From positions 2,689,361 to 2,753,360 of the forward strand of contig NC_017167.1 in assembly GCF_000219875.1 (NCBI RefSeq): a stretch of 64,000 bases of DNA, read 5' to 3'. This document shows positions 20,759-32,809 of this stretch, piece after piece. The notes below the pieces were generated by a model, which was not told where the DNA came from, did not search any database, and was given only the letters and a program-made list of their open reading frames with translations. The position numbers and the translations under genes are program-made. The DNA is from Alicyclobacillus acidocaldarius subsp. acidocaldarius Tc-4-1. Its GTDB lineage: Bacteria; Bacillota; Bacilli; Alicyclobacillales; Alicyclobacillaceae. Position 1 is the first letter of the stretch; every line of letters begins with the position of its first letter.

Positions 20759-21883
20759 TCAGCAAAGCGCCACGCCCAGGAAGGGCGGAAACGCCTTCGG
20801 CTGATACAGAGCACGCACCGCGCAGAGCGCCTCCTCCATGCGGTCGATCACGGCGTCCGTCCGATACCGCTCCACGGAATGAACACACACGTCCTGTGCT
20901 GGCAACTGGAGATGGCCGCGCGCGAGCCGGTCGAGAAGTGCCGCCAATTCATCTGAACGCCCGGGTTCGAACAGCCAACCATTGTGCCCATCCTGGACGA
21001 TTTCCACAGGACCTGAACAGCGCGTCGCGACGACGGGGATGCCCCGTGCCAGCGCCTCCACGAGCACCATGCCGAAGCCCTCGACATCTGACGTTAAGAG
21101 GAGCAGCGAAGCTTCGCCGACGCACGACCACGGATCATCCAGCCAACCCACCCATCGCACCCGCGCTCCAAGGCCAAGCTCCTGGGCGAGCCTTTCGAGC
21201 GCCTCCCGGTCCGGTCCGTCTCCGATGATGGTCAAGCGAAAATTCATCTGCGTTCGGGCGAGCGCCTGAAACATCACGTCGAGCCGCTTGTGGAGGTTGT
21301 CCATTCTCCCGATGGACAGAAGCTCCCAGCGGTCCTTCGGGCGCGCGACCTGTCGTACCCCTTCCCGAGTCACCGGATTCCCAATGGAAAACACAGGTGC
21401 ATCGTCGGACACGTACCGGCGAAGGGACGCCTCGACGCCCTTTGAGATCGCGAGGTGCCCATCCGCATACGCGAGGAGCTCTCCTCCGCCGTATGCCTCC
21501 GCGGGTCCATGAAGCCACGAGATGATAGGCGGTCTCCGCTCGCCAAACACGGCAACGGCCAGGTGCGCAAGGAGCGACAAATAAGGCGTATGGGTCGCGA
21601 GCAAGACGTCGGGCGGGCCGAGCTCGAGTATCTTCCTGCGATAGCCCAGTGCTTGGCGAAAGATGGGAACTTCACCTGGAAAAGTTCGTTCCTGACCAGC
21701 TGCGACGGGATCGTAAAAGTGCATCTCGGGCAAGGTGGACACCCACTCCGGATGCTGTGGAGGTTCAAATTGAAACATCCTGACGCGATGGCCCCTCTGC
21801 TGCAGCGCCTGGCTGACAGTCGTGAGCACGGACTCCAAACCACCGCGGCCGAGCGCGCGACCGAGCACAATATCGATGACCAA
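20759..21883 (-). CDS. GT4-family glycosyltransferase (first of tandem pair)
   Basis: About 374 residues with the GT-B fold. The N-terminal glycine block GRALGRGGLESVLTTVSQAL and the C-terminal GT4 signature (LLLLTSDVEGFGMVLVEALARG, then VVATRCSGPVEIV) are clear. TTG 21883 is chosen because GGGAGGTG lies six bases upstream and the family starts there. It begins five bases after the stop of a homologous GT4 gene. The pair resembles a tandem duplication. Placement beside flagellar genes suggests flagellin glycan synthesis; a cell-surface glycan is the alternative. Confidence 0.82.
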   Translation of the reverse strand: MVIDIVLGRALGRGGLESVLTTVSQALQQRGHRVRMFQFEPPQHPEWVSTLPEMHFYDPVAAGQERTFPGEVPIFRQALGYRRKILELGPPDVLLATHTPYLSLLAHLAVAVFGERRPPIISWLHGPAEAYGGGELLAYADGHLAISKGVEASLRRYVSDDAPVFSIGNPVTREGVRQVARPKDRWELLSIGRMDNLHKRLDVMFQALARTQMNFRLTIIGDGPDREALERLAQELGLGARVRWVGWLDDPWSCVGEASLLLLTSDVEGFGMVLVEALARGIPVVATRCSGPVEIVQDGHNGWLFEPGRSDELAALLDRLARGHLQLPAQDVCVHSVERYRTDAVIDRMEEALCAVRALYQPKAFPPFLGVALC

Positions 21884-21888
21884 CGCAC

Positions 21889-22962
21889 TCACCTCCCGAC
21901 CTTTAGGCACGCTGAAAGCGAAGCCAGCATCCGCCCCACGACGCGATCGACGGAAAATTTCTGCACGCTCTGGACGGCGATCTCGGCCATGCGTTCACGC
22001 TCGGTGTCGGACCGCGAGAGTAACAGCGACAACTTTCGGCGCAAGTCGAGGGAGTCGCCACTTCGAAACAAATAACCGTTTGCGCCGTCCTCGACGAGAT
22101 CGCGCGGGCCGGTGGGACAATCCGACGCAACAACGGGAACACCGCGAGCCAGTGCCTCGGCGAGCACCATGCCGAAACCTTCGATATCCGACGTGAGCAG
22201 GAGTGCGGATGCCTCGCTCACTCTCTCCCACGGAGACGGCACGTAGCCATGCCATGTGATCCGTCCGTCGATACCGAGGCTTTCCGCCCAGTCCTTGACC
22301 AATCCACGATCGGGTCCGTCCCCGTAGACGTCGAGGTGCCAGTCCTCGTCGAGTTGGCTTAGGCCGTGGAGCAGCACATCCAAGCGCTTCTGACCATTTT
22401 CGAGTCGTCCCATGTAGAGAAAGCGTGGCTTCCCCTTGGGCGCGGGAACCCTTGACACGTCGATTCGCACCGGATTTCCAATCCAGTGAACATGCGCCGC
22501 CCCACCGACGAGCTCCGCGATAGATGACGCAATCCCCGACGAAATACACCAGTGAAGATCCGCGTATTGGACCAGATGGGGCTCGGCGAAGAGTTGTAGC
22601 GGAGCGTGGAGCCAGGACACAACGGGGACACCGCGCAAATGGCCATAGGCCATCCTGGCGTAGAGCGCGGTGTGCGGCACGTGCGTCGCGACCACCACAT
22701 CCGGCTGCGGCAGAAGGCTTGCCGTGTGGCACAAGCCAATGATGCGGGTGGCGACGTGGTCCAGCGCAGACCTCGGCGGGGGTGCGGACATCGCGTAGTA
22801 CACCGTGCAAAGTGGAGCTTCCCAGGCCGGATTGTCACTGGGATGGGGCATTAACAGCACGACCTCGTGTCCCTTGTCGCGAAGGTACGTGCTCACCGTG
22901 GTGAGGACGGACTCCACGCCGCCCTGTCCCCCGAGGTGTTCTAAAACAAAGAACCATCGCAT
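21889..22962 (-). CDS. GT4-family glycosyltransferase (second of tandem pair)
   Basis: About 357 residues, starting MRWFFVLEHLGGQGGVESV at ATG 22962 after GGAGGA. The C-terminal signature LLLTSDIEGFGMVLAEALARG is nearly the same as in the downstream paralogue. The conserved ESVLTTVS block in both genes supports duplication and divergence. It is the first gene of the pair and is divergent from the methyltransferase at 23122, sharing a 159-base intergenic region. Probable substrate is a nucleotide sugar; acceptor unknown. Confidence 0.83.
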   Translation of the reverse strand: MRWFFVLEHLGGQGGVESVLTTVSTYLRDKGHEVVLLMPHPSDNPAWEAPLCTVYYAMSAPPPRSALDHVATRIIGLCHTASLLPQPDVVVATHVPHTALYARMAYGHLRGVPVVSWLHAPLQLFAEPHLVQYADLHWCISSGIASSIAELVGGAAHVHWIGNPVRIDVSRVPAPKGKPRFLYMGRLENGQKRLDVLLHGLSQLDEDWHLDVYGDGPDRGLVKDWAESLGIDGRITWHGYVPSPWERVSEASALLLTSDIEGFGMVLAEALARGVPVVASDCPTGPRDLVEDGANGYLFRSGDSLDLRRKLSLLLSRSDTERERMAEIAVQSVQKFSVDRVVGRMLASLSACLKVGR

Positions 22963-23121
22963 ACGGATTCCTCCGCTCAAATCGTCACACAGGCACCCCC
23001 GCGCGCCATGCACATGCTACACTCAATGAAGGCCAGTAGTTCGACGAAGTGCAACCGAAAAACGGCGCACAAGTCGGACGGCCATCTCACTCCAGCTGAC
23101 GGGGAGCGTTGAACGAAGTTG

Positions 23122-23976
23122 ATGGACCAAGCCTTCCAAGTCATTGATGACGTCATGAAGACGTATGTTTCGCGGGAAGATGTCCCCAACCGATGGCTTA
23201 TTCACCAAACGCTCGCCACGGCAGCTATACGCCGAGCCGTCCTCCGCGCGCTGCCCATCCGCGCCGGGATGCGTGTCCTTGACATCGGCTGCGGATTCGG
23301 CGCCCTCACCTTTGACATCGCGGCGCTTTATGCCGTGCAGCTGACAGGCATCGACCGATCATCCACAGCGCTCGCGGTGGCAAAGCGCGTGGAACACGAC
23401 CTCAGGAACGCGGGCGCAATAGCCGCGGGATGCGCCATCGAGTGGAAGACGGGCGACGCGGAGGCGCTGCCGCTCCCAGACAACGATGCCGATGTCGCGG
23501 TTTCGCGCTTCTTATTCCAGCACCTCACGAATCCGAATGCAGCCGTTCGGGAGATCTTCCGCGTTTTGAAGCCGGGTGGCTTCACGTGCCTGATAGACGC
23601 CGACGACGCGCTGAGCCTCGAATATCCCGTCGATCCCGTCGCCGCCGAGGTCAAGGACGCCCTGAGCAGACTACAGCAAACAAACGGAGGCGACAGACAC
23701 ATGGGAAGGAAACTCGCCAGCCTGCTCGCAGGAGCTGGCCTCTCCGTCGTCCAGACGTTTGTCGTGCCTCAAGCGCACTATGCAGAAACACCCAGTCGCC
23801 TTGCTCGCCTTACGCTCCTCGAACAACTGCGGGAACGCCGCGCTGGGCTCATCGAAACCGGTATCATCAGCCAAGCGTCGTATGAAGCGCTCGCAAGACG
23901 CTTGCAGCAAGAACCGGAACAGCCGCAGTTTTCCATGCACGCGGAAGTCGCCGTGATCGCGAAGAAGCCGGCCTGA
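23122..23976 (+). CDS. SAM-dependent class I methyltransferase
   Basis: About 284 residues. The SAM site VLDIGCGFGALTFD (about residues 53-66), the acidic strand-2 end TGIDRSS, GDAEALPLPDNDADVA and FRVLKPGGF are typical of the Methyltransf_11/25 fold. ATG 23122 lacks a strong ribosome site; a TTG directly precedes it. It is the only plus-strand gene in the 20.7-36 kb block and converges on the GT2-FliS gene with overlapping hairpin. Methylation of a flagellin sugar is a reasonable guess from context only. Confidence 0.78.
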   Translation: MDQAFQVIDDVMKTYVSREDVPNRWLIHQTLATAAIRRAVLRALPIRAGMRVLDIGCGFGALTFDIAALYAVQLTGIDRSSTALAVAKRVEHDLRNAGAIAAGCAIEWKTGDAEALPLPDNDADVAVSRFLFQHLTNPNAAVREIFRVLKPGGFTCLIDADDALSLEYPVDPVAAEVKDALSRLQQTNGGDRHMGRKLASLLAGAGLSVVQTFVVPQAHYAETPSRLARLTLLEQLRERRAGLIETGIISQASYEALARRLQQEPEQPQFSMHAEVAVIAKKPA

Positions 23977-23990
23977 ACAGCGTTCAGGCC
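23970..23990. terminator. Hairpin spanning both convergent stop codons
   Basis: Perfect nine-base arms GGCCTGAAC and GTTCAGGCC with a three-base loop. It covers the methyltransferase stop and the GT2-FliS stop. No T-tract, so efficiency is uncertain. Confidence 0.4.
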
Positions 23991-26248
23991 TGCACCTTGG
24001 CCCACGTGTCGGCCCAGGACTGCCAGAACTGCCGCATCTCTTGGTATTCGTCTGCCACCCGCGCAGGCTGGAGAAACCAGCCAACGAGCATTTTATAGAA
24101 ATAGCCGTAAGATGCATTGGCAGCCTTCCCCGCCTCGGTGGACACGTCGAGATTGCTGCGCAGGAACGTGATGATGTCCTGCACATATTGGATGTACGTG
24201 CGCGCTCCCATGATGTCCCCCTGCTTCACAAGCTCCATCACCTGATCCACGCACTCGACAGCGCGCTCGTGCAGTTTCACAATCTTCACTTTGAGCGGCA
24301 TGGTCGCCACGGACATTTGATAGGCCCGGTGTGGGTTCATGGTCGTTCCCTCCTCGAGCAGTTCATCCAAGGAACGCGCTTGGCGCTCCGTCACATGCAG
24401 GCGCTCCTCGATGTGTCGCAGAATGTCTGATGACGGAAACCAGGCCCTGGCCTGTCGAACGACCGTGCTGGCGTGATCCACGTTTCGATGTGCCAGGGCT
24501 AGGTCAGCCTCCATCACTGCGCGGCGGACCGTGGGTTCGTACGCCAAGCCGCGCTCAAGCCATTTGAGGCTCGTGGCGATGTCGCGGCGGTGAAATGCGG
24601 CTGTGGCGAGAAAGTCACACTCCCAGCCCCGCTCCCCTCTCCATGCGACGTGATGGAGCATATCGCGGAGCGGCGAGGCGAGCACACGCGATAGCACTTC
24701 GTCGCGATCCGCCGCCTGGGGGAGAGACTGCAAAAGCAACCGATGAGCGCGGACAAGCAGAAGCTCATCAAGGAGCGGCCCGATGTGCAATGGGGTCCCG
24801 CCGGATAGCCACGGTTCAAGTTGTGCGAGTCGTTCAGGCTGATCTTGCAAAAGGGACCGCGCCAGATCCCCTTCCCTCCGGTTGATCGCCAACAGGGCCT
24901 GAAACCAGCGCTGCTCTAGCTTTGCAGCGGGCTCGTCCGGCAAGGAAGATGGTTCCAACTTCCCCAATGCCACACCAGATGCCCTGAGCTTTGCGAGAAT
25001 CGGAGACGTCACTGGCGTGTGATCGATTTCGTTCAGCGCGGACCAGACCCAGTCCTGACGCCACATCGCGCCAGCGATGGCGAGGTACGCAAGGCAGACC
25101 GGGTCGTGCTCGGCGGCGCGCCAGAGTTGGGACCACACGGGCGCCTCCCCCAGCGGCAAGAGCGATGCCAGAAAGAAGAACACACCCTCCTGGCGGGGAT
25201 TCGCGCGCAGGCTCTGCACAAAGTAGTCGCGCGCGCGTTCCACATCGCCTTCGAGCAGCCAAAGTTCCCCAAGCTTCGCGGCTGCGACGAACGAACCCGC
25301 GCCAGCGATGGTATCTACAATCTCGGACCGCACGGGGCCAATCTCGAGGCATCGCTCAAATAAACGGATGGCCTTGTGCCACCTGCCTTGCTTCATCTCA
25401 TACACGCCATGGATAAAAGGCAGGTCAGGGATGGACGGAAAGAGTTGTTCGCCTTCCGACGCGAGACGCTCGAGGCGGTTCGAATCGCCGATATCGCCGT
25501 AGGCCGCAGCGAGCATGCGGTATAGCCGCAGGACGAGGTGCGGTTCCGTCACGAGGTGCGACGCCGCGATGGCATAAGCCCGTTCTCCCACCTCGATGAC
25601 GCGCTCAGGCTGATTGATCCTGGCGTATTCAGCCATGAGGTTGGTGAGATGAAACAGGTTTTCGGGATCCTGATCCAGCACCTGCTTGAGTATGGAAAGG
25701 TTTCGATCCGGCTTTCCCTTCATGGCAACAAATTCTGCGAGATAGCCGAGATGGTGCAACTCCACATCGAGCACCTGGACGCGGCCGCCCCGCGCCGCAA
25801 TTTGCGGCAATATCTGTTCGTGAATCGTCCCCTGATAGGTAAAGCCTCGCCGGAACACGCGCACAACTCGCACGCCGGGAGCGCGCACGAAGCGAGCGAC
25901 GGAGCCGACATAATTGACGAGATCGACCGTATAAGCGTCCGCTTCGCCGGCTTCGATGGCGCGCCGCAGCCGCTTGCCATCCTCTTGGGGAAGAAATTCA
26001 TCGGCGTCAATGACGAGCACATAGTCGCCCTGCGCGTGCTGGAGCGACCGGTTCCTGGCCTCTCCGAAGTCTCCTGTCCAGGGCGCTTGGTAAACACGTG
26101 CACCAAATGCTGCCGCGATGCGCGGCGTATCATCCGTGGAACCGGTGTCCACGACGATAATCTCGTCCGCCACGCCCTCAAGCGACTTCAGACATCGCTC
26201 GATGACATGCGCTTCATTTTTGACGATGAGACATGCGGAAAGCAACAC
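23984..26248 (-). CDS. GT2 glycosyltransferase - TPR-like region - FliS flagellin chaperone fusion
   Basis: A 754-residue three-part protein. Residues 1-230 are a GT2 domain of the SunS-like type: LSACLIVKNEAHVIERCL, VVDTGSTDDT and the metal site VIDADEFLP. A long helical, TPR-like region follows to about 630. Residues 637-754 align with FliS: NPHRAYQ start, VQDIITFLRSNLD, ASYGYFYKMLVGWFL, WADTWAKVQA. There is no stop between the parts. GAGGAGGGA lies seven bases before the internal ATG (24340), so free FliS could also be made. GTG 26248 follows AAGGCGG. It occupies the fliS position after fliD. Inferred role: glycosylate flagellin held by the chaperone. Confidence 0.88.
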   Translation of the reverse strand: MLLSACLIVKNEAHVIERCLKSLEGVADEIIVVDTGSTDDTPRIAAAFGARVYQAPWTGDFGEARNRSLQHAQGDYVLVIDADEFLPQEDGKRLRRAIEAGEADAYTVDLVNYVGSVARFVRAPGVRVVRVFRRGFTYQGTIHEQILPQIAARGGRVQVLDVELHHLGYLAEFVAMKGKPDRNLSILKQVLDQDPENLFHLTNLMAEYARINQPERVIEVGERAYAIAASHLVTEPHLVLRLYRMLAAAYGDIGDSNRLERLASEGEQLFPSIPDLPFIHGVYEMKQGRWHKAIRLFERCLEIGPVRSEIVDTIAGAGSFVAAAKLGELWLLEGDVERARDYFVQSLRANPRQEGVFFFLASLLPLGEAPVWSQLWRAAEHDPVCLAYLAIAGAMWRQDWVWSALNEIDHTPVTSPILAKLRASGVALGKLEPSSLPDEPAAKLEQRWFQALLAINRREGDLARSLLQDQPERLAQLEPWLSGGTPLHIGPLLDELLLVRAHRLLLQSLPQAADRDEVLSRVLASPLRDMLHHVAWRGERGWECDFLATAAFHRRDIATSLKWLERGLAYEPTVRRAVMEADLALAHRNVDHASTVVRQARAWFPSSDILRHIEERLHVTERQARSLDELLEEGTTMNPHRAYQMSVATMPLKVKIVKLHERAVECVDQVMELVKQGDIMGARTYIQYVQDIITFLRSNLDVSTEAGKAANASYGYFYKMLVGWFLQPARVADEYQEMRQFWQSWADTWAKVQA

Positions 26249-26600
26249 GCGAATCCGCCTTTCGATTCGATGATGTCGCTGCGTGCGCCTGACTGGCCGC
26301 GTAGGCGCGGATGACCGGCCAAGCCGCCAAAACCCGGTCGCGATCCTTGGTCAAGGACCTGTGTTTTTCCTCCGCCGCGATGCGAATCGCTTCCGTCTGG
26401 GCCATGAGGCGGCACATCCACACCTCGGAGACGCCTCGATGCCCGTCCAAGCAAACGGCGAGCACCTCGGCCCGGTGCTGCATGATAGCCGCGGCCTCAT
26501 GCAAACAATTTGACGCAAGAAGCGACAAGACCTCGTGGCCCAAGTTCCAGGCCTTTTCGATTTCGCGGCACCCCGCCTGCAGAGCGTCGTGGAGTGGCAT
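26214..26600 (-). CDS. FliT-like flagellar chaperone (putative)
   Basis: A 128-residue, mostly helical protein: AGCREIEKAWNLGHEVLSLL, HRAEVLAVCLDGH, then EAIRIAAEEKHRSLTKDRDRVL. This resembles FliT/FlgN-type chaperones, which bind the filament cap FliD and other late substrates. ATG 26600 follows GAGGTGA. It begins 13 bases after the fliD stop, the normal place for fliT or fliS, and its end overlaps the GT2-FliS gene by 35 bases. Similarity is structural rather than clear-cut, so the name is tentative. Confidence 0.6.
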   Translation of the reverse strand: MPLHDALQAGCREIEKAWNLGHEVLSLLASNCLHEAAAIMQHRAEVLAVCLDGHRGVSEVWMCRLMAQTEAIRIAAEEKHRSLTKDRDRVLAAWPVIRAYAASQAHAATSSNRKADSRVAFRMSHRQK

Positions 26601-26613
26601 GCGCTCACCTCGC

Positions 26614-28143
26614 TTAGCCATTGGACGAAGACGTCTTGAACATCGCGGACAATTGCTGCATCTGCGCCTGTGCCTGCTGCATGACCTCATTCAGCCTGTT
26701 CAATTGATCGGTGTACTGCTGCACCCGATATTGAATCTGCTGATCGACCAGGTTGAGATAATTCTGAAGCGACGTCTTTTCGTCACCAAGCGCGTTGATT
26801 TCCGCCTGAATGGGCGACTGCCCTGTGCCGTTCGGATTCCCCACGAGCATCGTGCTCAGGAAGTTATAAAGGTTCCCAAGCACGCCGGACGTTGGAACAG
26901 CCTGCGACGCTGTGGTGTTGACGACGCCGAACAGCTGCTCCACGTTCGAGAGGCTCGAGGTCAGTGCGTTCTGGAAGATGCTTTGCCCATCCGGCAGCGT
27001 TCCCGACGCAGAGCTGAACCCCGAAGCGGACTGGAATTCGAGGTGACCGGTCGATGGGTCGAGGACGATGCCAATCGACGCGAGCGAATTGTACGGCGAT
27101 GTGGCGCCACTAACGACGCTTGAGACCGCCGCAGGAAGGGCCTGCAATAGCTCCTCCGCGAGCGGATCCCCGAAGAGGGGGCCGGCCTGCCCAGCGCTCG
27201 TACCTGTCCCCGGCGTATAGGCGGTGTCCTGCCGGATGGTGTCAATGAGCGTGTTGTATGCGCTCATCCACGTCTGAACCGCCTTCAGCGCCCCGCTCGT
27301 ATCCTGTGACACGGTGACAGTCGCCGTGCCTTTTGAATTCACCTGGAGCGTCAGGCCGGGAATATAATTGGCAAACGTGTTAGTAGGAGATGAAAGCGTC
27401 TGACCGCCGACGGAGATCTGGGCATCTTGAGCCTGGGTATCGGTCTGGAACGTTAGCGCGTCTCCGGAGGAGCCAACATTCGTCTCCGTGACGTCAAACC
27501 CGTACGCGGCTCCCGTCTGTACTGATGAAAGGGCGAGGAAATACGACTGCCCTGTTGAGAGAACGGATGCGGCGACACCCGTTTGACTCGTGTATTGGTT
27601 GATGGCATTGGCAATGCTTTGTAACGATTCATTCTGGGCTATGCTGATGGAAACCGATTGCCCTTGATTCAGTGTATGCGGCGTGATGACAAGGGTTCCA
27701 CTCGCCAACGTGGAAGCCCCGGTGGCACTTGTTTGAAGCGCGGAATTTTGAAACATCGTCTGCGCGTAAGCTAACTGACTGACACTTATTTGATAGGTGC
27801 CAATGTTCGCACCCGCGGAGGCCGTTACGGAAAGCACGCTCGAGTCGCTGCTCGACGCCTGTACCGTGCTCCAGCTCTGGAGGCTGGCAAGCGTTTCGGT
27901 CGCTTGTTGAAACGCCTGAAGCGCCGACTGAAGGGACGTCAGCGCGGACTGTTGGGACGAGAGCGAGGAGATTTGATTTTGAATGGGCTTTTCGAGTTCC
28001 TGTTGAAGAATCGTTTGCAGATCCTGAACGTACTGGCTAACAGGCAGGCCGGTGCCAGATGGGTTGGAGACCGTATTCAGTTGCTGCAGCAGGCTGGCGG
28101 CCGTCTGCAAATTGGTCGACATGCTTGTGGAGTTCACCGACAC
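26614..28143 (-). CDS. fliD: Flagellar filament cap protein FliD
   Basis: Caps the growing filament and helps insert flagellin. The 509-residue protein has a FliD N-domain (STNLQTAASLLQQLNTV, VQDLQTILQQELEKPIQ, SALTSLQSALQAFQQ). Central beta-rich repeats contain ASAGANIGTYQISVSQLA. The C-terminal coiled coil is YTDQLNRLNEVMQQAQAQM. GTG 28143 follows a perfect AAAGGAGGAG at six bases. It lies downstream of flagellin, separated by a hairpin. flaG, usual between hag and fliD in Bacillus, is absent. Confidence 0.92.
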   Translation of the reverse strand: MSVNSTSMSTNLQTAASLLQQLNTVSNPSGTGLPVSQYVQDLQTILQQELEKPIQNQISSLSSQQSALTSLQSALQAFQQATETLASLQSWSTVQASSSDSSVLSVTASAGANIGTYQISVSQLAYAQTMFQNSALQTSATGASTLASGTLVITPHTLNQGQSVSISIAQNESLQSIANAINQYTSQTGVAASVLSTGQSYFLALSSVQTGAAYGFDVTETNVGSSGDALTFQTDTQAQDAQISVGGQTLSSPTNTFANYIPGLTLQVNSKGTATVTVSQDTSGALKAVQTWMSAYNTLIDTIRQDTAYTPGTGTSAGQAGPLFGDPLAEELLQALPAAVSSVVSGATSPYNSLASIGIVLDPSTGHLEFQSASGFSSASGTLPDGQSIFQNALTSSLSNVEQLFGVVNTTASQAVPTSGVLGNLYNFLSTMLVGNPNGTGQSPIQAEINALGDEKTSLQNYLNLVDQQIQYRVQQYTDQLNRLNEVMQQAQAQMQQLSAMFKTSSSNG

Positions 28144-28159
28144 AGTGGGCTCCTCCTTT

Positions 28160-28189
28160 GAGAAAGCCCCAGCCAAGCCGGCCGGGGCT
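28160..28189 (-). terminator. Terminator/attenuator between flagellin and fliD
   Basis: Ten-base arms AGCCCCGGCC and GGCTGGGGCT (one G-U pair) around a five-base loop, followed by TTTCTC on the minus strand. It probably lowers fliD expression relative to the abundant flagellin. Confidence 0.7.
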
Positions 28190-28204: not shown

Positions 28205-29059
28205 TTATTGCAACAGCTTCAGGATAGCATCAGGCTGCTGGTCTGCTTGCGCCAGCATCGCCAAGCCGACTTGCTGCAGAACCTGCTGCTGGCTGAATTC
28301 AGTATAGGCCTTCGCCATGTCTGTGTTGGTGATGGTCGACTCGGCATTCTGCAGGTTGTCGGCCGTGTTCTGCAGGTTCGAGACGGTGTAGTTCAGCTGA
28401 TCTTCCACGGCGCCCACCTGGGCCTGGTACGCCGACAGGCTCGTGATGGCCGCCTGGACAACGGAAATTGCCTGCTGCGCGAGCGTCTGCGATGTGATGT
28501 GCAGATATCCTCCGGACAGAACAGCCGAACTGAAGAGCGCCCCGATGCTGACCGCGGCGATGGTCACGGTGAGCTGGGAGTTGGTCGTGCTGTCGGTGTT
28601 GATCTGGAATACGACACCACTGCTTGCAAACGAACCATCGAGCAGCGTCATGGTGTTGAACTTCGTCTGGCTCGCGATGTTGTTGATCTGGTTCTGCAGG
28701 GCGACGAATTCCTGATCCAGGTTGCTCAGGTCCGTCGAATTCTCCGTGCCGTTGGCCGCCTCGACGGCGAGCGTGTTCATGGTCTGCAGAATCGAGGTGA
28801 CTTGGTTCATGGCGCCGGACGCGGTCTGCAACATGCTGATGCCGTTTTGCGCGTTTTGAATGGCCTGGTTGAGCGCGTTCACCTGAGCGGTCATCTGCTG
28901 TGCAATCGCGTATCCCGCCGGATCGTCAGCGGCGCTGTTGATTCGGTTGCCAGTCGACAGTTGCTGATATGATGTGTTGATTTCGTTGTTGACGTACTGC
29001 AGGTTCGAAAGAATGCTTGCGGCGGACGCATTGTTGTTTACACTGAAATTGAGGGACAT
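28205..29059 (-). CDS. hag: Flagellin
   Basis: The filament subunit, 284 residues, close to the short Bacillus-type flagellins. The N-terminal D0/D1 helix block has QLSTGNRINSAADDPAGYAI. The C-terminal block has AQVGAVEDQLNYTVSNLQNT and QQVLQQVGLAMLAQADQ. The central variable region is short and Ser/Thr-rich (SFASSGVVF, NTDSTTNSQ), offering O-glycosylation sites; there is no cysteine. ATG 29059 follows GGAGGAGG. No clear sigma-28 promoter was seen upstream. The chaperone-glycosyltransferase fusion nearby is its predicted modifier. Confidence 0.95.
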   Translation of the reverse strand: MSLNFSVNNNASAASILSNLQYVNNEINTSYQQLSTGNRINSAADDPAGYAIAQQMTAQVNALNQAIQNAQNGISMLQTASGAMNQVTSILQTMNTLAVEAANGTENSTDLSNLDQEFVALQNQINNIASQTKFNTMTLLDGSFASSGVVFQINTDSTTNSQLTVTIAAVSIGALFSSAVLSGGYLHITSQTLAQQAISVVQAAITSLSAYQAQVGAVEDQLNYTVSNLQNTADNLQNAESTITNTDMAKAYTEFSQQQVLQQVGLAMLAQADQQPDAILKLLQ

Positions 29060-29166: not shown

Positions 29167-30135
29167 TCAACTCGGCAGATAGCTCACCAATGTGGGGAGC
29201 AGAATCTGAGCGCCCATCTGCAGCGCAGCCTCGTAGATCACCTGATCTGTGGAGAACTGCGTCATGACCTGGGCCATATCCGCCCCTTCAATCCCCCCTT
29301 TCAAGTTGCTGAGATTGGTCTGATATTGGGTCAACTGGTTTTGCGCAGCGGTCATGCGCTGAATGCGCGCCCCGAGCGCCGCGTTCAGGTTAATAACCTG
29401 ATTCAAGTTGGCCTGGAGGTTCGTCAGGTCCTGCTTCAAGCCGGCCGTGTTCCCGCTTTGCAGGTCAGTTTGAATGTCGTTCAGCGTATCCTGCAAGTTT
29501 GGGCCACCGCCAGGCGACGTGAGGAAGATGTCGTAAGCAGTGACGGTTACACGAATGGAAACCTGATTCCCGATGATCTGGTTCACGTTTGGCGGACTCG
29601 CGTTGGCGTCGTCAAACGGATTGTAAGGCGTCGACTGCGGCCCGGCGCCCGGCGGAATCACCTGCGGGGTCCCGTTGGGGGACGTTTTGAGGTACGTGGT
29701 AGGTGCCACGTTGTCCGCTTGACCTCCGAACAAGTAGCGGCTGCCGACGGTCTGGTCGGCAATCTGGTACACACCCTGAATGAGCTGCGCGATGGTCTCG
29801 GCATAGCCCTGGAGTCCCGCGCTGCTCTGGTTGGATGTGTTCATCGCAGCCACCAAGTTGGATTGAATCTGCTGAAGTTGGGTCACCATCCCTTGCATCG
29901 CGGACTGCGTCGCGTTCATCCAGGAAAGGCCGGAAGAAATCGTCGACAGATTCGCAGAGATCTGCGAAATCTCGCTTGCCAAATCCATATCTTGCGATAC
30001 AGCGACAGGATCGTCCTGCGGGAGGTTGAGGACTTTGCCGGTGGACAGCTGCTCCTGCACGTTCTGCATCGCAGTGTTGATGTTCTCAAGGTTGTACAGG
30101 AACTGCTGCTGCTCCATCGCCGTTGTAATCCGCAC
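29167..30135 (-). CDS. flgL: Flagellar hook-filament junction protein FlgL
   Basis: Joins the hook to the filament beside FlgK. About 322 residues with flagellin-like ends: RITTAMEQQQFLYNLENINTA and LSTGKVLNLPQDDPVAV at the start, GADMAQVMTQFSTDQVIYEA at the end. GTG 30135 is chosen because GGAGGTG lies six bases upstream and FlgL proteins begin MRIT/MRVT; the upstream GTG 30144 is too close to the site. It starts 18 bases after the flgK stop, in the order flgK-flgL. The usual next genes fliW and csrA are missing before hag. Confidence 0.93.
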   Translation of the reverse strand: MRITTAMEQQQFLYNLENINTAMQNVQEQLSTGKVLNLPQDDPVAVSQDMDLASEISQISANLSTISSGLSWMNATQSAMQGMVTQLQQIQSNLVAAMNTSNQSSAGLQGYAETIAQLIQGVYQIADQTVGSRYLFGGQADNVAPTTYLKTSPNGTPQVIPPGAGPQSTPYNPFDDANASPPNVNQIIGNQVSIRVTVTAYDIFLTSPGGGPNLQDTLNDIQTDLQSGNTAGLKQDLTNLQANLNQVINLNAALGARIQRMTAAQNQLTQYQTNLSNLKGGIEGADMAQVMTQFSTDQVIYEAALQMGAQILLPTLVSYLPS

Positions 30136-30153
30136 CTTCGTCACCTCCGCCGC

Positions 30154-31617
30154 TTACGGTTGAACCATGTTCAACAAGGCGTTCAACATCGTCTGAAACG
30201 TCGCGATATATTTGGCCGCAGCCGCGTACGCATTTTGAAACGCAATCATGTAGGATGCCTGCTCGTCAATCGAGACCCCCGAAATCGACTGCCGCAATTG
30301 GGAGCTCTGTTGAAGAAGCGCGTCTGCCGTCTTTTCTCCCGCCGCCACACCGGAAGCCGTCATGCCGACTTGAGACACCATGCTTGCGAGCAGTTGATCG
30401 AACGTCCCCGTCGCGGATTGCGAATTGCCGCTGCCGTCAATCCATGTAATGGACTGCGCCTGCGTCTGCAGGTTGATGACATTCACGGCGTACGTATTGT
30501 CTCCCGCGACATACGTGGAAGATCCGGGAGGACCGCCCGGCCCGAGCGCGAGCGTTGCGCTGGTCATCTTGACATCGACGCCAAACGGGCTCGTGTCAAA
30601 GAACGTCTGTCCGCCCAGCGCGGAGTTAATTTGCGTCGCAAGTTGGGACGTGAAAGCATTCAAATTGTTCAAGAGACCTGTGAGTTCCGTAAAACCCTGG
30701 GCGTTTCCCGCAATTTGTCCGCCGGAGACAACGGACGAAAGCGAGTACGTCTGTGTATTGGAGCCGGAACCCACACGCAGAACGAGGACGCCGTTGCTGC
30801 CTTCCGTCACCGACGCCTGAGTCAACGCGTTAAGCGGTATCACCGTGCCCGAAGAGCCGCCTGGCCCGATGGAGACGGATATGGTTCCATCTTGGTTTTG
30901 CGATAGCGTTAAGTTTGCCAACTTCGACATTTCGTCGATGATAGCAGCCTGCTGGTCGAGTAGCTCGTTTGGGTTTTCCACAGCGGACGATGACGCCCCA
31001 CCCGCTCCCACGTTGCTCTGCGATATCGCTGCAATTTGTGCCTGCACCGCGGAAAGTTCTTGCGCATATTGTTCCAGCTGCTGAAATTGATCATTAATTT
31101 GGCTCAGAACATTCGATTGCAAAGTTTGGAGTTGCGACGTCACCGTGTTTGCGGTCTGCGCCAATACCTGCCCCTGGGTGATCACCGCCTGGCGCGCCGC
31201 CGTATTCGACGGATCCGTGGAGAGCGTCTGCCACGCGCCGAAGAACTGGTCGAGCGCGTTTTGAATCCCATTCGAGCTTGGTTCGCTTAGAATGCCTTGG
31301 ACCTGCGTGAGGATAGAACTGTACGTTGAATACATCTGATAGGTACTCTGGTTCTGCCAGTCCTGGCGGTCATAGAACCAACTGTCCTGACGAGTGACGG
31401 ACTGCACCGACACACCTTGACCGTATTGGCCTCCAATCATCGGGCCGTCGCCAGGCACCGGCGGATACGGATGGCCTTCGACCAAATTCACGCTTTCCTG
31501 CGCGTAACCCGGCGTGTTGGCGTTATCGATGTTGTTGCCAACCACACTTTCCGCCTCTTGCATCGCCTGAAGTCCCGACAACCCTATGTACAGAGGGGAG
31601 AATGTCGGCGTCCCCAT
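30154..31617 (-). CDS. flgK: Flagellar hook-associated protein FlgK
   Basis: First hook-filament junction protein, 487 residues. The N-terminal rod-family block reads LYIGLSGLQAMQEAESVVGNN, followed by IDNANTPGYAQE. A FlgK-type LDQFFGAWQTLSTDPSNTAAR segment follows. The C-terminus carries GVSIDEQASYMIAFQNAYAA with a final helix. ATG 31617 is six bases after GAGGTGA. It follows the FlgN-like gene by 18 bases in the same operon. Confidence 0.94.
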   Translation of the reverse strand: MGTPTFSPLYIGLSGLQAMQEAESVVGNNIDNANTPGYAQESVNLVEGHPYPPVPGDGPMIGGQYGQGVSVQSVTRQDSWFYDRQDWQNQSTYQMYSTYSSILTQVQGILSEPSSNGIQNALDQFFGAWQTLSTDPSNTAARQAVITQGQVLAQTANTVTSQLQTLQSNVLSQINDQFQQLEQYAQELSAVQAQIAAISQSNVGAGGASSSAVENPNELLDQQAAIIDEMSKLANLTLSQNQDGTISVSIGPGGSSGTVIPLNALTQASVTEGSNGVLVLRVGSGSNTQTYSLSSVVSGGQIAGNAQGFTELTGLLNNLNAFTSQLATQINSALGGQTFFDTSPFGVDVKMTSATLALGPGGPPGSSTYVAGDNTYAVNVINLQTQAQSITWIDGSGNSQSATGTFDQLLASMVSQVGMTASGVAAGEKTADALLQQSSQLRQSISGVSIDEQASYMIAFQNAYAAAAKYIATFQTMLNALLNMVQP

Positions 31618-31635
31618 CACACGTCACCTCATCCA

Positions 31636-31926
31636 TCAAGCCCAACTCAAAAAGCCGTTACGTTGATAAATTCGTCCTAGAAACGCCTGCGAAAGACCCA
31701 GGCCCTGTTGAATCAGTTGCTGTTGCAACATGGCCCGCTCTGCAATTAGCCTTAACCGCTCCCCGTGTGCCTCAAGCGAGACACCATCCAATTTTTGCAA
31801 ACATTCACACTGCGCCGACATGAGCGGCAACAACTCTGCGGTCTCGCCGCGGATCAGGCCGTCCAGCACCTGGTCCACAAGGCTTTCCAAGCGCGCCAAC
31901 AGACTGTCCACGTCAGTCACGCTCAT
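31636..31926 (-). CDS. flgN: FlgN-like chaperone for FlgK/FlgL
   Basis: A 96-residue helical protein. Its pattern (LLARLESLVDQVLDGLIRGE, MSAQCECLQKLDG, then an L-rich helix with QQQLIQQGLGLSQAFL) fits the FlgN family, which escorts FlgK and FlgL to the export gate. ATG 31926 follows GAGGCG by six bases and overlaps the flgM end by 14 bases. Position between flgM and flgK matches B. subtilis yvyG. Confidence 0.78.
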   Translation of the reverse strand: MSVTDVDSLLARLESLVDQVLDGLIRGETAELLPLMSAQCECLQKLDGVSLEAHGERLRLIAERAMLQQQLIQQGLGLSQAFLGRIYQRNGFLSWA

Positions 31927-32110
31927 TGAACACGCCTCGCTCCACCATGACTTGTGCGATGCGTTCAAGATTCACCTCGTAGGTTCCATCGTGCACAGCT
32001 TGCTGCAGTTGCTGAAGCCGATCCGATTTCACCTGATCCACCGTCGAGCGGAAGGTCCCGTCGTTCGCTGGATTGGGTGAAACGGGAAATGAACTCGGCG
32101 GTATGGCCAT
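31913..32110 (-). CDS. flgM: Anti-sigma-28 factor FlgM
   Basis: Holds the flagellar sigma factor inactive until the hook is finished and FlgM is exported. The 65-residue protein has a disordered Pro/Ser-rich N-terminus and the conserved C-terminal helix pair VKSDRLQQLQQAVHDGTYEV, then LERIAQVMVERGVF. ATG 32110 follows AGGGGGG by six bases. Unusually, a compact FliA-like sigma gene lies directly upstream, giving an adjacent sigma/anti-sigma pair. Confidence 0.88.
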   Translation of the reverse strand: MAIPPSSFPVSPNPANDGTFRSTVDQVKSDRLQQLQQAVHDGTYEVNLERIAQVMVERGVFNERD

Positions 32111-32254: not shown

Positions 32255-32809
32255 TCAAGCCCAGATTTCCTTGTCAGCGGAAAGCCCCAACTTTACACGC
32301 AGCTCCTTCAGAATGGCCCGATATCGGTGGTACACCTGTGACTTGGTGAGTCCGAGCACCGTCGCGACATCTTGAAAGCTGAGTGACTGTTCAAAGACGA
32401 GTGACAACAAGATCTGGTCTTGTCGCGGCAGTTCGGCCATTTTCGACACAATCTCGCGCACGAGCTCGTCCTGCTCCCACTGCTCAATGGGATTGCCTGC
32501 TGGCACGCGCTCCAGCTCGTCAGCGCTTTTCGCCTTCTGGTAGGCCTCGATGGCCTGCGCCATGGGCACGGAACGAGGCATTTTCAGCAAAGATGAATTT
32601 CTCAGCAGCGTGAGCATGGCATACTTGATGATCTGCTTGGCATACTTCTCGTCCAGCGCCTGTTCACGACCGCGCTGCCAGAGCGCGCTCATCGCGACCG
32701 AAACCAAGTCTTGCTCATCGACCATCGCACTCCTGCGGTACCGGACGAGGCGTTGAGCAAGCCTGTAGATGTACGGTATGTACTGCTCGAATGCCGGCGA
32801 ACTCCCCAA
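32255..32809 (-). CDS. Compact FliA-like sigma-70 family factor
   Basis: A 184-residue sigma factor. Region 2 is FEQYIPYIYRLAQRL, then MVDEQDLVSVAMSALW, and a FliA-like MPRSV motif. A short linker leads to region 4: KMAELPRQDQILLSLVFEQ with the helix-turn-helix LSFQDVATVLGLTKSQVYHR. Usual FliA is about 240 residues, so the region 2-3 part is reduced. TTG 32809 is the only plausible start, with GAGGAG about ten bases upstream. Being next to flgM suggests it is the sigma controlled by FlgM, but another role cannot be excluded. Confidence 0.78.
   Translation of the reverse strand: MGSSPAFEQYIPYIYRLAQRLVRYRRSAMVDEQDLVSVAMSALWQRGREQALDEKYAKQIIKYAMLTLLRNSSLLKMPRSVPMAQAIEAYQKAKSADELERVPAGNPIEQWEQDELVREIVSKMAELPRQDQILLSLVFEQSLSFQDVATVLGLTKSQVYHRYRAILKELRVKLGLSADKEIWA

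Follow-up and report, generated by a model that had tools for sequence, protein, structure and literature searches.

A glycosyltransferase joined to the flagellin chaperone FliS in Alicyclobacillus acidocaldarius, with a conserved internal start that probably yields free FliS

The window analysed here, 64,000 nucleotides of the Alicyclobacillus acidocaldarius subsp. acidocaldarius Tc-4-1 genome, encodes one protein that, as read from its sequence, joins a GmaR-like GT2 glycosyltransferase to a TPR solenoid and to the flagellin chaperone FliS. The overall reading that we consider probable is that this fusion binds the flagellin C-terminus via FliS and O-glycosylates flagellin in the cytoplasm before export, and that a conserved internal start gives free FliS. 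The fusion, its intact DxD motif, its conservation in 21 genomes and the conserved internal start-type codon with its ribosome site are sequence-based, and the FliS fold of the C-terminal part is predicted. The gene and its parts are as follows:

23984..26248, minus strand: fused gene GT2-TPR-FliS, 754 aa, GTG start (Pfam; fused homologues P0003-P0024 aligned with P0001)
25664..26248, minus strand: GT2 (GT-A) glycosyltransferase domain, about residues 1-195, GmaR/SunS fold
26000..26008, minus strand: DxD motif D81-A-D83, from an alignment of 23 fused proteins, pairing with the DAD of GmaR and SunS
25814..25822, minus strand: H143-E144-Q145, pairing with the IHEQ of GmaR
24350..25663, minus strand: TPR-like helical solenoid, about residues 196-633 (Pfam TPR matches and AlphaFold2 model)
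24314..24349, minus strand: low-confidence linker spanning the internal start, residues 634-645 (AlphaFold2 pLDDT <50)
23984..24340, minus strand: FliS domain, also the predicted free FliS, residues 637-754 (Pfam PF02561; FliS structures by sequence and fold)

The earlier note on this DNA had described a single open frame with three parts, and Pfam places all three on 754 codons that hold no internal stop: Glycos_transf_2 matches residues 4-126 (E 1.3e-23), TPR matches are confined to residues 281-352, and FliS matches residues 642-752 (E 1.4e-9 in the full protein), which cover profile positions 3-114 of 115 and so agree with the note's view of a C-terminus that follows FliS from end to end. 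Translation from ATG 24340 improves the FliS match to E 6e-11. The Pfam cut-offs are surpassed by GT2, TPR_2 and FliS alike, PF02561 scoring 38.7 bits in the fused protein and 43.1 in the FliS part alone against a gathering threshold of 26.7; the NCBIfam fliS equivalog, with a cut-off of 53.75 bits, matches below it (fused protein 19.6, FliS part 24.0) because the FliS of the fused gene is divergent and falls in a separate sub-clade. The fused gene is the one FliS match in the source genome, a single contig that is 99.99% complete. A whole-protein AlphaFold2 model built from the 23 aligned fused proteins (mean pLDDT 89, pTM 0.85) renders the solenoid region as nearly all helix and leaves residues 634-645, at the FliS border, as the sole segment with pLDDT below 50. 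Since the structure-match list for the full protein spans residues 1-576 only, the FliS part was folded and searched separately (pLDDT 87). Modelling of this part with flagellin had been suggested; the predicted model of the part alone superposes on the flagellin-bound FliS of B. subtilis (5maw; TM 0.84/0.88, rmsd 1.7 A), and also matches FliS entries of A. aeolicus and H. pylori.

The gene does lie, as had been claimed, in the fliS position of a late flagellar block, the same-strand order being flgK, flgL, flagellin, fliD, a small gene and the fused GT/TPR-fliS:

30154..31620, minus strand: flgK (Pfam FlgK_D1)
29167..30144, minus strand: flgL (Pfam flagellin-type N/C domains and position after flgK)
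28205..29059, minus strand: flagellin, the presumed substrate, 284 aa, no Cys (Pfam Flagellin_N/C)
26614..28176, minus strand: fliD, filament cap (Pfam FliD_N/FliD_C)
26214..26600, minus strand: small gene in the fliT position, 128 aa, overlapping the start of the fused gene (position only)

A Pfam search gives this last gene no match and hence no name; together with 31636-31968 and 32255-32809 it makes up the small genes of the flagellar block, two of which (110 and 128 aa) are without a Pfam match, the third encoding a short sigma-70-like protein of 184 aa upstream of flgK. The fused gene is followed by two GT4 glycosyltransferases and a convergent methyltransferase (20759-23013 and 23119-23976), and the GT4 pair and methyltransferase recur after the fused gene in the A. 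sendaiensis genome (G009). A further GT2-type match, in some cases with TPR matches, lies downstream of fliS in ten genomes (L069, L073, L076, L077, L078, L080, L081, L084, L086 and L087), which suggests additional glycan steps. A FliW match is missing from all 59 genomes of the order, with B. subtilis and T. maritima positive as controls; most of these 59 genomes do have FliS, and flagellin homeostasis may proceed without FliW in this order.

Fusion of these parts is not peculiar to one strain. Of the 59 genomes of the order, 21, from two families, carry it in an open frame of 756-819 codons, so that a strain accident, a sequencing error or a local stop loss can be set aside; no stop or frameshift separates the GT and FliS parts in these genomes, and the GT2-TPR-FliS architecture that the earlier note had proposed to look for in relatives persists down to 30% identity. 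The fused relatives P0003-P0024 are 30-68% identical to the query protein (P0002, at 99%, is the query's own cluster), and the closest named relative found, Alicyclobacillus sendaiensis, is 99% identical. Other named carriers are A. mali, A. sacchari, A. montanus, A. tengchongensis and A. hesperidum, and separate, unfused forms include those of A. fastidiosus and Sulfoacidibacillus thermotolerans. A profile of the FliS subclass matches 32 of the 59 genomes, 21 fused and 11 with separate frames. The FliS parts of two of the fused genes (G030 and G035) fall under the Pfam FliS cut-off, yet G035, at Pfam E 0.00136, reaches 1.4e-44 with the subclass profile, in whose building it was not used. Matches to FliS at E 4e-4 or worse, in open frames of roughly 1190-1370 aa and other atypical ones, were discounted as chance hits. 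In a phylum sample of 398 genomes the subclass profile (E<=1e-12) matches the source genome, which is the sole fused match, and three others, where the subclass FliS is a separate frame of 136-147 aa. Run against proteins of 0.55-1.75 times the length (32 candidates, from close relatives), the FliS part gave eight matches, query included; all eight were GT2-TPR-FliS proteins, and none joined FliS to another partner. In keeping with the earlier note, which knew of no described system with this layout, no published description of the fusion was found in the open-licence literature; the architecture is already on record by machine, the public annotation of relative P0023 reading 'glycosyltransferase involved in cell wall biosynthesis/flagellin-specific chaperone FliS'. 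The FliC-FliS protein 4iwb is also FliS in a fusion, but its partner is flagellin, not an enzyme, and we take it to be a laboratory construct made for crystallography. The phrase 'FliS fusion' led to one paper, the accessible part of which has a table row on 4iwb and gives its origin as Aquifex (PMC7693769).

The enzyme had been labelled SunS-like, a label that we replace. By sequence, its best solved match is the GmaR GT domain (22ao, an entry whose species is not displayed in the match list; E 3.6e-32 from the single sequence), followed by ThuS and SunS; with a family profile the match to GmaR reaches E 2.4e-55, and the SunS model NCBIfam TIGR04195 gives 73 bits against a cut-off of 350. DxD and IHEQ motifs like those of GmaR are present in the GT2 domain, D81, D83, E84 and H143-E144-Q145 being invariant in all 23 aligned fused proteins; H143-E144-Q145, like IHEQ, presumably has an active-site role. 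Among the best 50 matches of a fold search SunS leads and 22ao is absent, and the GmaR entry 7x9r stands at rank 11. By sequence, 7x9r aligns to residues 139-365 only of a chain that ends in FliS; this entry is without the GT domain, according to the accessible part of PMC9638930. From the same portion of that paper, Listeria GmaR, a GT2-TPR flagellin O-GlcNAc transferase and MogR antirepressor whose GT domain transfers GlcNAc to flagellin, resembles the fusion in having GT2 and then TPR and in length (637 residues, against 636 for the enzyme part of the fusion), whereas its C-terminus is an antirepressor domain and that of the fusion is FliS. MogR had no match in the source genome, which says little because the control matched in no genome. 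The peptide S-glycosyltransferases SunS and ThuS, farther in sequence than GmaR, form S-linkages, whereas the flagellins located in 20 of the 21 fused loci (the contig of G030 is cut) contain no cysteine (20 of 20), and a sulphur-linked glycosylation of flagellin is judged unlikely for this reason. Absence of Cys is no special trait of fused loci, as all 17 flagellins from other loci lack it too; both counts cover the flagellins in the loci examined. The 20 flagellins of fused loci have 272-314 residues, lengths that are upper bounds counted from the first Met of the open frame. It would be possible, albeit most improbable, that the enzyme acts on some other flagellar or surface protein and that FliS merely brings it to the export gate, in which case the additional glycosyltransferases nearby (20759-23013) would find a place; solved complexes, however, show FliS bound to flagellin, and the nearest relative, GmaR, glycosylates flagellin (PMC9638930, in the part available). 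Flagellin stays the presumed substrate.

PF01973, which we take to be the Maf family, matches neither the fused protein nor anything in the source genome, and is present elsewhere in the genome in one of the 21 fused genomes (G029). In two canonical-FliS relatives, G023 and G031, a PF01973 gene occupies the same slot, directly before fliS or overlapping it (the two genes are L098:6192-8099 and L100:8423-10420), as a separate gene of another enzyme family, and coordinates only suggest the same for G022 and G024. The position before fliS resembles a site for flagellin glycosyltransferases in which one enzyme can replace another.

The FliS of the fused genes belongs to a distinct group. It resembles the FliS export chaperone in predicted fold, operon place and single copy, but differs in being fused, in forming a strongly supported separate clade and in five replaced signature positions. 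In a FliS tree, 27 rows of the fused-gene type and four intermediates split from 28 canonical rows with 100/99 support, the program warning of long branches for G054, G031 and G023. The 59 rows of this tree and of the residue comparison comprise 41 loci of the order (10 of the 20 canonical-FliS genomes and 31 of the 32 subclass genomes, G053 being left out) and 18 class loci (of 19 tried, from 30; L022 was dropped); the class rows were retained only with an LYDG/LHE-type motif, so that only the ten canonical rows of the order give unbiased motif counts. Of the residues that are near-invariant in canonical FliS, the subclass replaces Y24 with His, G26 with Arg, Gln or Lys, A88 with Trp (Ile or Leu in the intermediates), N89 with Phe or Tyr and R110 mostly with Ala, and because of these replacements its contacts with flagellin or the export gate may be changed; Tyr7, Leu23, Ile56, Leu60, Tyr78 and Trp113 are largely retained. 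The loss of canonical signature residues in the 27 subclass rows would also suit a FliS that serves the long product as a docking or regulatory module, for example in GmaR-like transcription control, with flagellin glycosylated independently of the FliS domain. This is improbable, as the same FliS is the only one found in each fused genome and its predicted fold matches flagellin-bound FliS; binding of flagellin is the function we favour. A GT2-TPR frame lies upstream of the subclass FliS in 30 of 31 loci (a contig end cuts the remaining one) and upstream of canonical FliS in one of ten (G017), and the enzyme therefore does not require a subclass FliS; in G016 and G037 the GT2-TPR frame lies farther upstream of fliS, with other genes intervening. 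Sorted by eye, flagellin C-termini fall into classes that match the FliS type, a match that common descent of the entire cassette could explain as well as co-evolution. Within one genus, six canonical-FliS species (G001, G004, G005, G007, G010 and G012) have late flagellar genes of another type (FlgK segments 27-40% identical against G000), as though this cassette had been swapped in one piece.

A second FliS is absent at E<=0.001 from every one of the 21 fused genomes, and an internal start could supply the free chaperone. Its elements are:

24347-24355, minus strand: internal Shine-Dalgarno motif GAGGAGGGA, duplex energy -12.3, the best of the gene's 64 in-frame start-type codons
24338-24340, minus strand: internal start codon ATG, predicted start of a 118-aa free FliS

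The earlier note had placed this motif before ATG 24340 at a spacing of seven bases; the motif is there, and the spacing is six. The earlier interpretation is partly supported: the fusion, the FliS part and the internal site stand, and the SunS-like label and the seven-base spacing do not. Picked by a residue motif that is blind to start-codon identity (the codon before Asn-Pro or its counterpart), the FliS-opening codon is a start-type codon in all 21 fused genes (ATG in 16, GTG in four and TTG in one, TTG being 12% of the Leu codons of that gene), and the column holds M, V or L in 23 of 23 aligned proteins. Over the 21 genes the mean ribosome-site energy is -9.5 here and -2.1 at other in-frame start-type codons; by this energy the internal start comes first in 11 genes and no lower than third in 19, whereas the other two genes place it 4th of 68 and 7th of 62. 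Synonymous shuffling with the protein held fixed gave single-gene p values from 0.0003 to 0.68, combining to about 1e-3 over all 21 genes and 7e-4 over 14 representatives. In most single genes the site is not clearly above random synonymous choices, and part of the signal could for that reason come from the Glu/Gly-rich linker. Linker residues vary by lineage and the ribosome-site motif persists, which favours selection acting on the RNA, if not fully separable from constraint on the linker protein. Given the start codon kept in 21 of 21 genes and the ribosome site in the top three in 19, one gene probably makes both the tethered enzyme and free FliS.

The origin of this start is suggested by relatives in which the two genes are separate. 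In all five with abutting separate genes (G008, G020, G042, G043 and G044) the stop of the enzyme gene and the start of fliS share four bases (GTGA, TTGA or ATGA), exactly at the place of the internal start in the fused genes, and the FliS start codon inside the fused gene is for this reason best read as the former gene start. G055, with a TPR-like end about 210 bases before fliS and a contig that ends before any GT2 domain, was on account of that gap counted as separate, not overlapping. A tree of the enzyme part (31 rows) has a branch that separates the 21 fusions from the five overlapping pairs and five outgroup rows, with support of 94/92, just short of the program's mark for strong support, and with warnings of long branches for G041, G047 and G054; the tree of the short FliS alignment requires two changes between fused and separate. 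A single fusion event is accordingly favoured over more, but unproven. These overlaps bear on a rather unlikely alternative, in which the enzyme and free FliS are the working products and their covalent link adds only co-expression: the four-base overlap in relatives outside the fused group would already couple translation, and the internal start-type codon is retained in every fused gene. However, 21 genomes keep the frame open, to 30% identity, though a single frameshift or stop in the linker, which is poorly conserved among fused proteins, would undo the fusion, and within the fused group of the enzyme tree there is no separate pair (the FliS tree does not show this). We prefer the reading in which the long product itself works as a tethered enzyme.

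The model proposes that the FliS part would catch the flagellin C-terminus, supply substrate recognition and keep the chain near the enzyme, and that the solenoid and flexible linker would present the chain to the GT2 site, where a sugar would be added to Ser/Thr of the small flagellin's filament domain before export. The free FliS that the internal start is predicted to supply, best read as the ancestral separate gene kept within the fusion, would account for most deliveries to the export gate, as a 754-residue chaperone would be bulky there. Whether one gene thus provides a chaperone-tethered glycosyltransferase and the free chaperone, with glycosylation on chaperone-bound flagellin, a rewired FliS and an order the reverse of that in Aeromonas, is to our judgement evenly balanced. 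A point against the favoured reading is that in Aeromonas, by the account in the available part of PMC4065374, Maf acts before chaperone binding and modifies flagellin independently of the chaperone, which itself prefers glycosylated flagellin; Campylobacter FliS has likewise been described to prefer the glycosylated form (PMC5466977, accessible part).

The order of flagellin modification and export is known from few systems, and how the sugar can be sensed by a chaperone whose contact is with an unglycosylated end is named as an open question in the accessible part of PMC4065374. A natural covalent enzyme-chaperone would make the link between modification and export testable with one purified protein, and would suggest a tool for tethered glycosylation. 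With its internal start, the gene would be a bacterial case in which one gene makes a fusion protein and that protein's own C-terminal domain. If the reading is true, glycosylation and export of flagellin would be welded into one handover.
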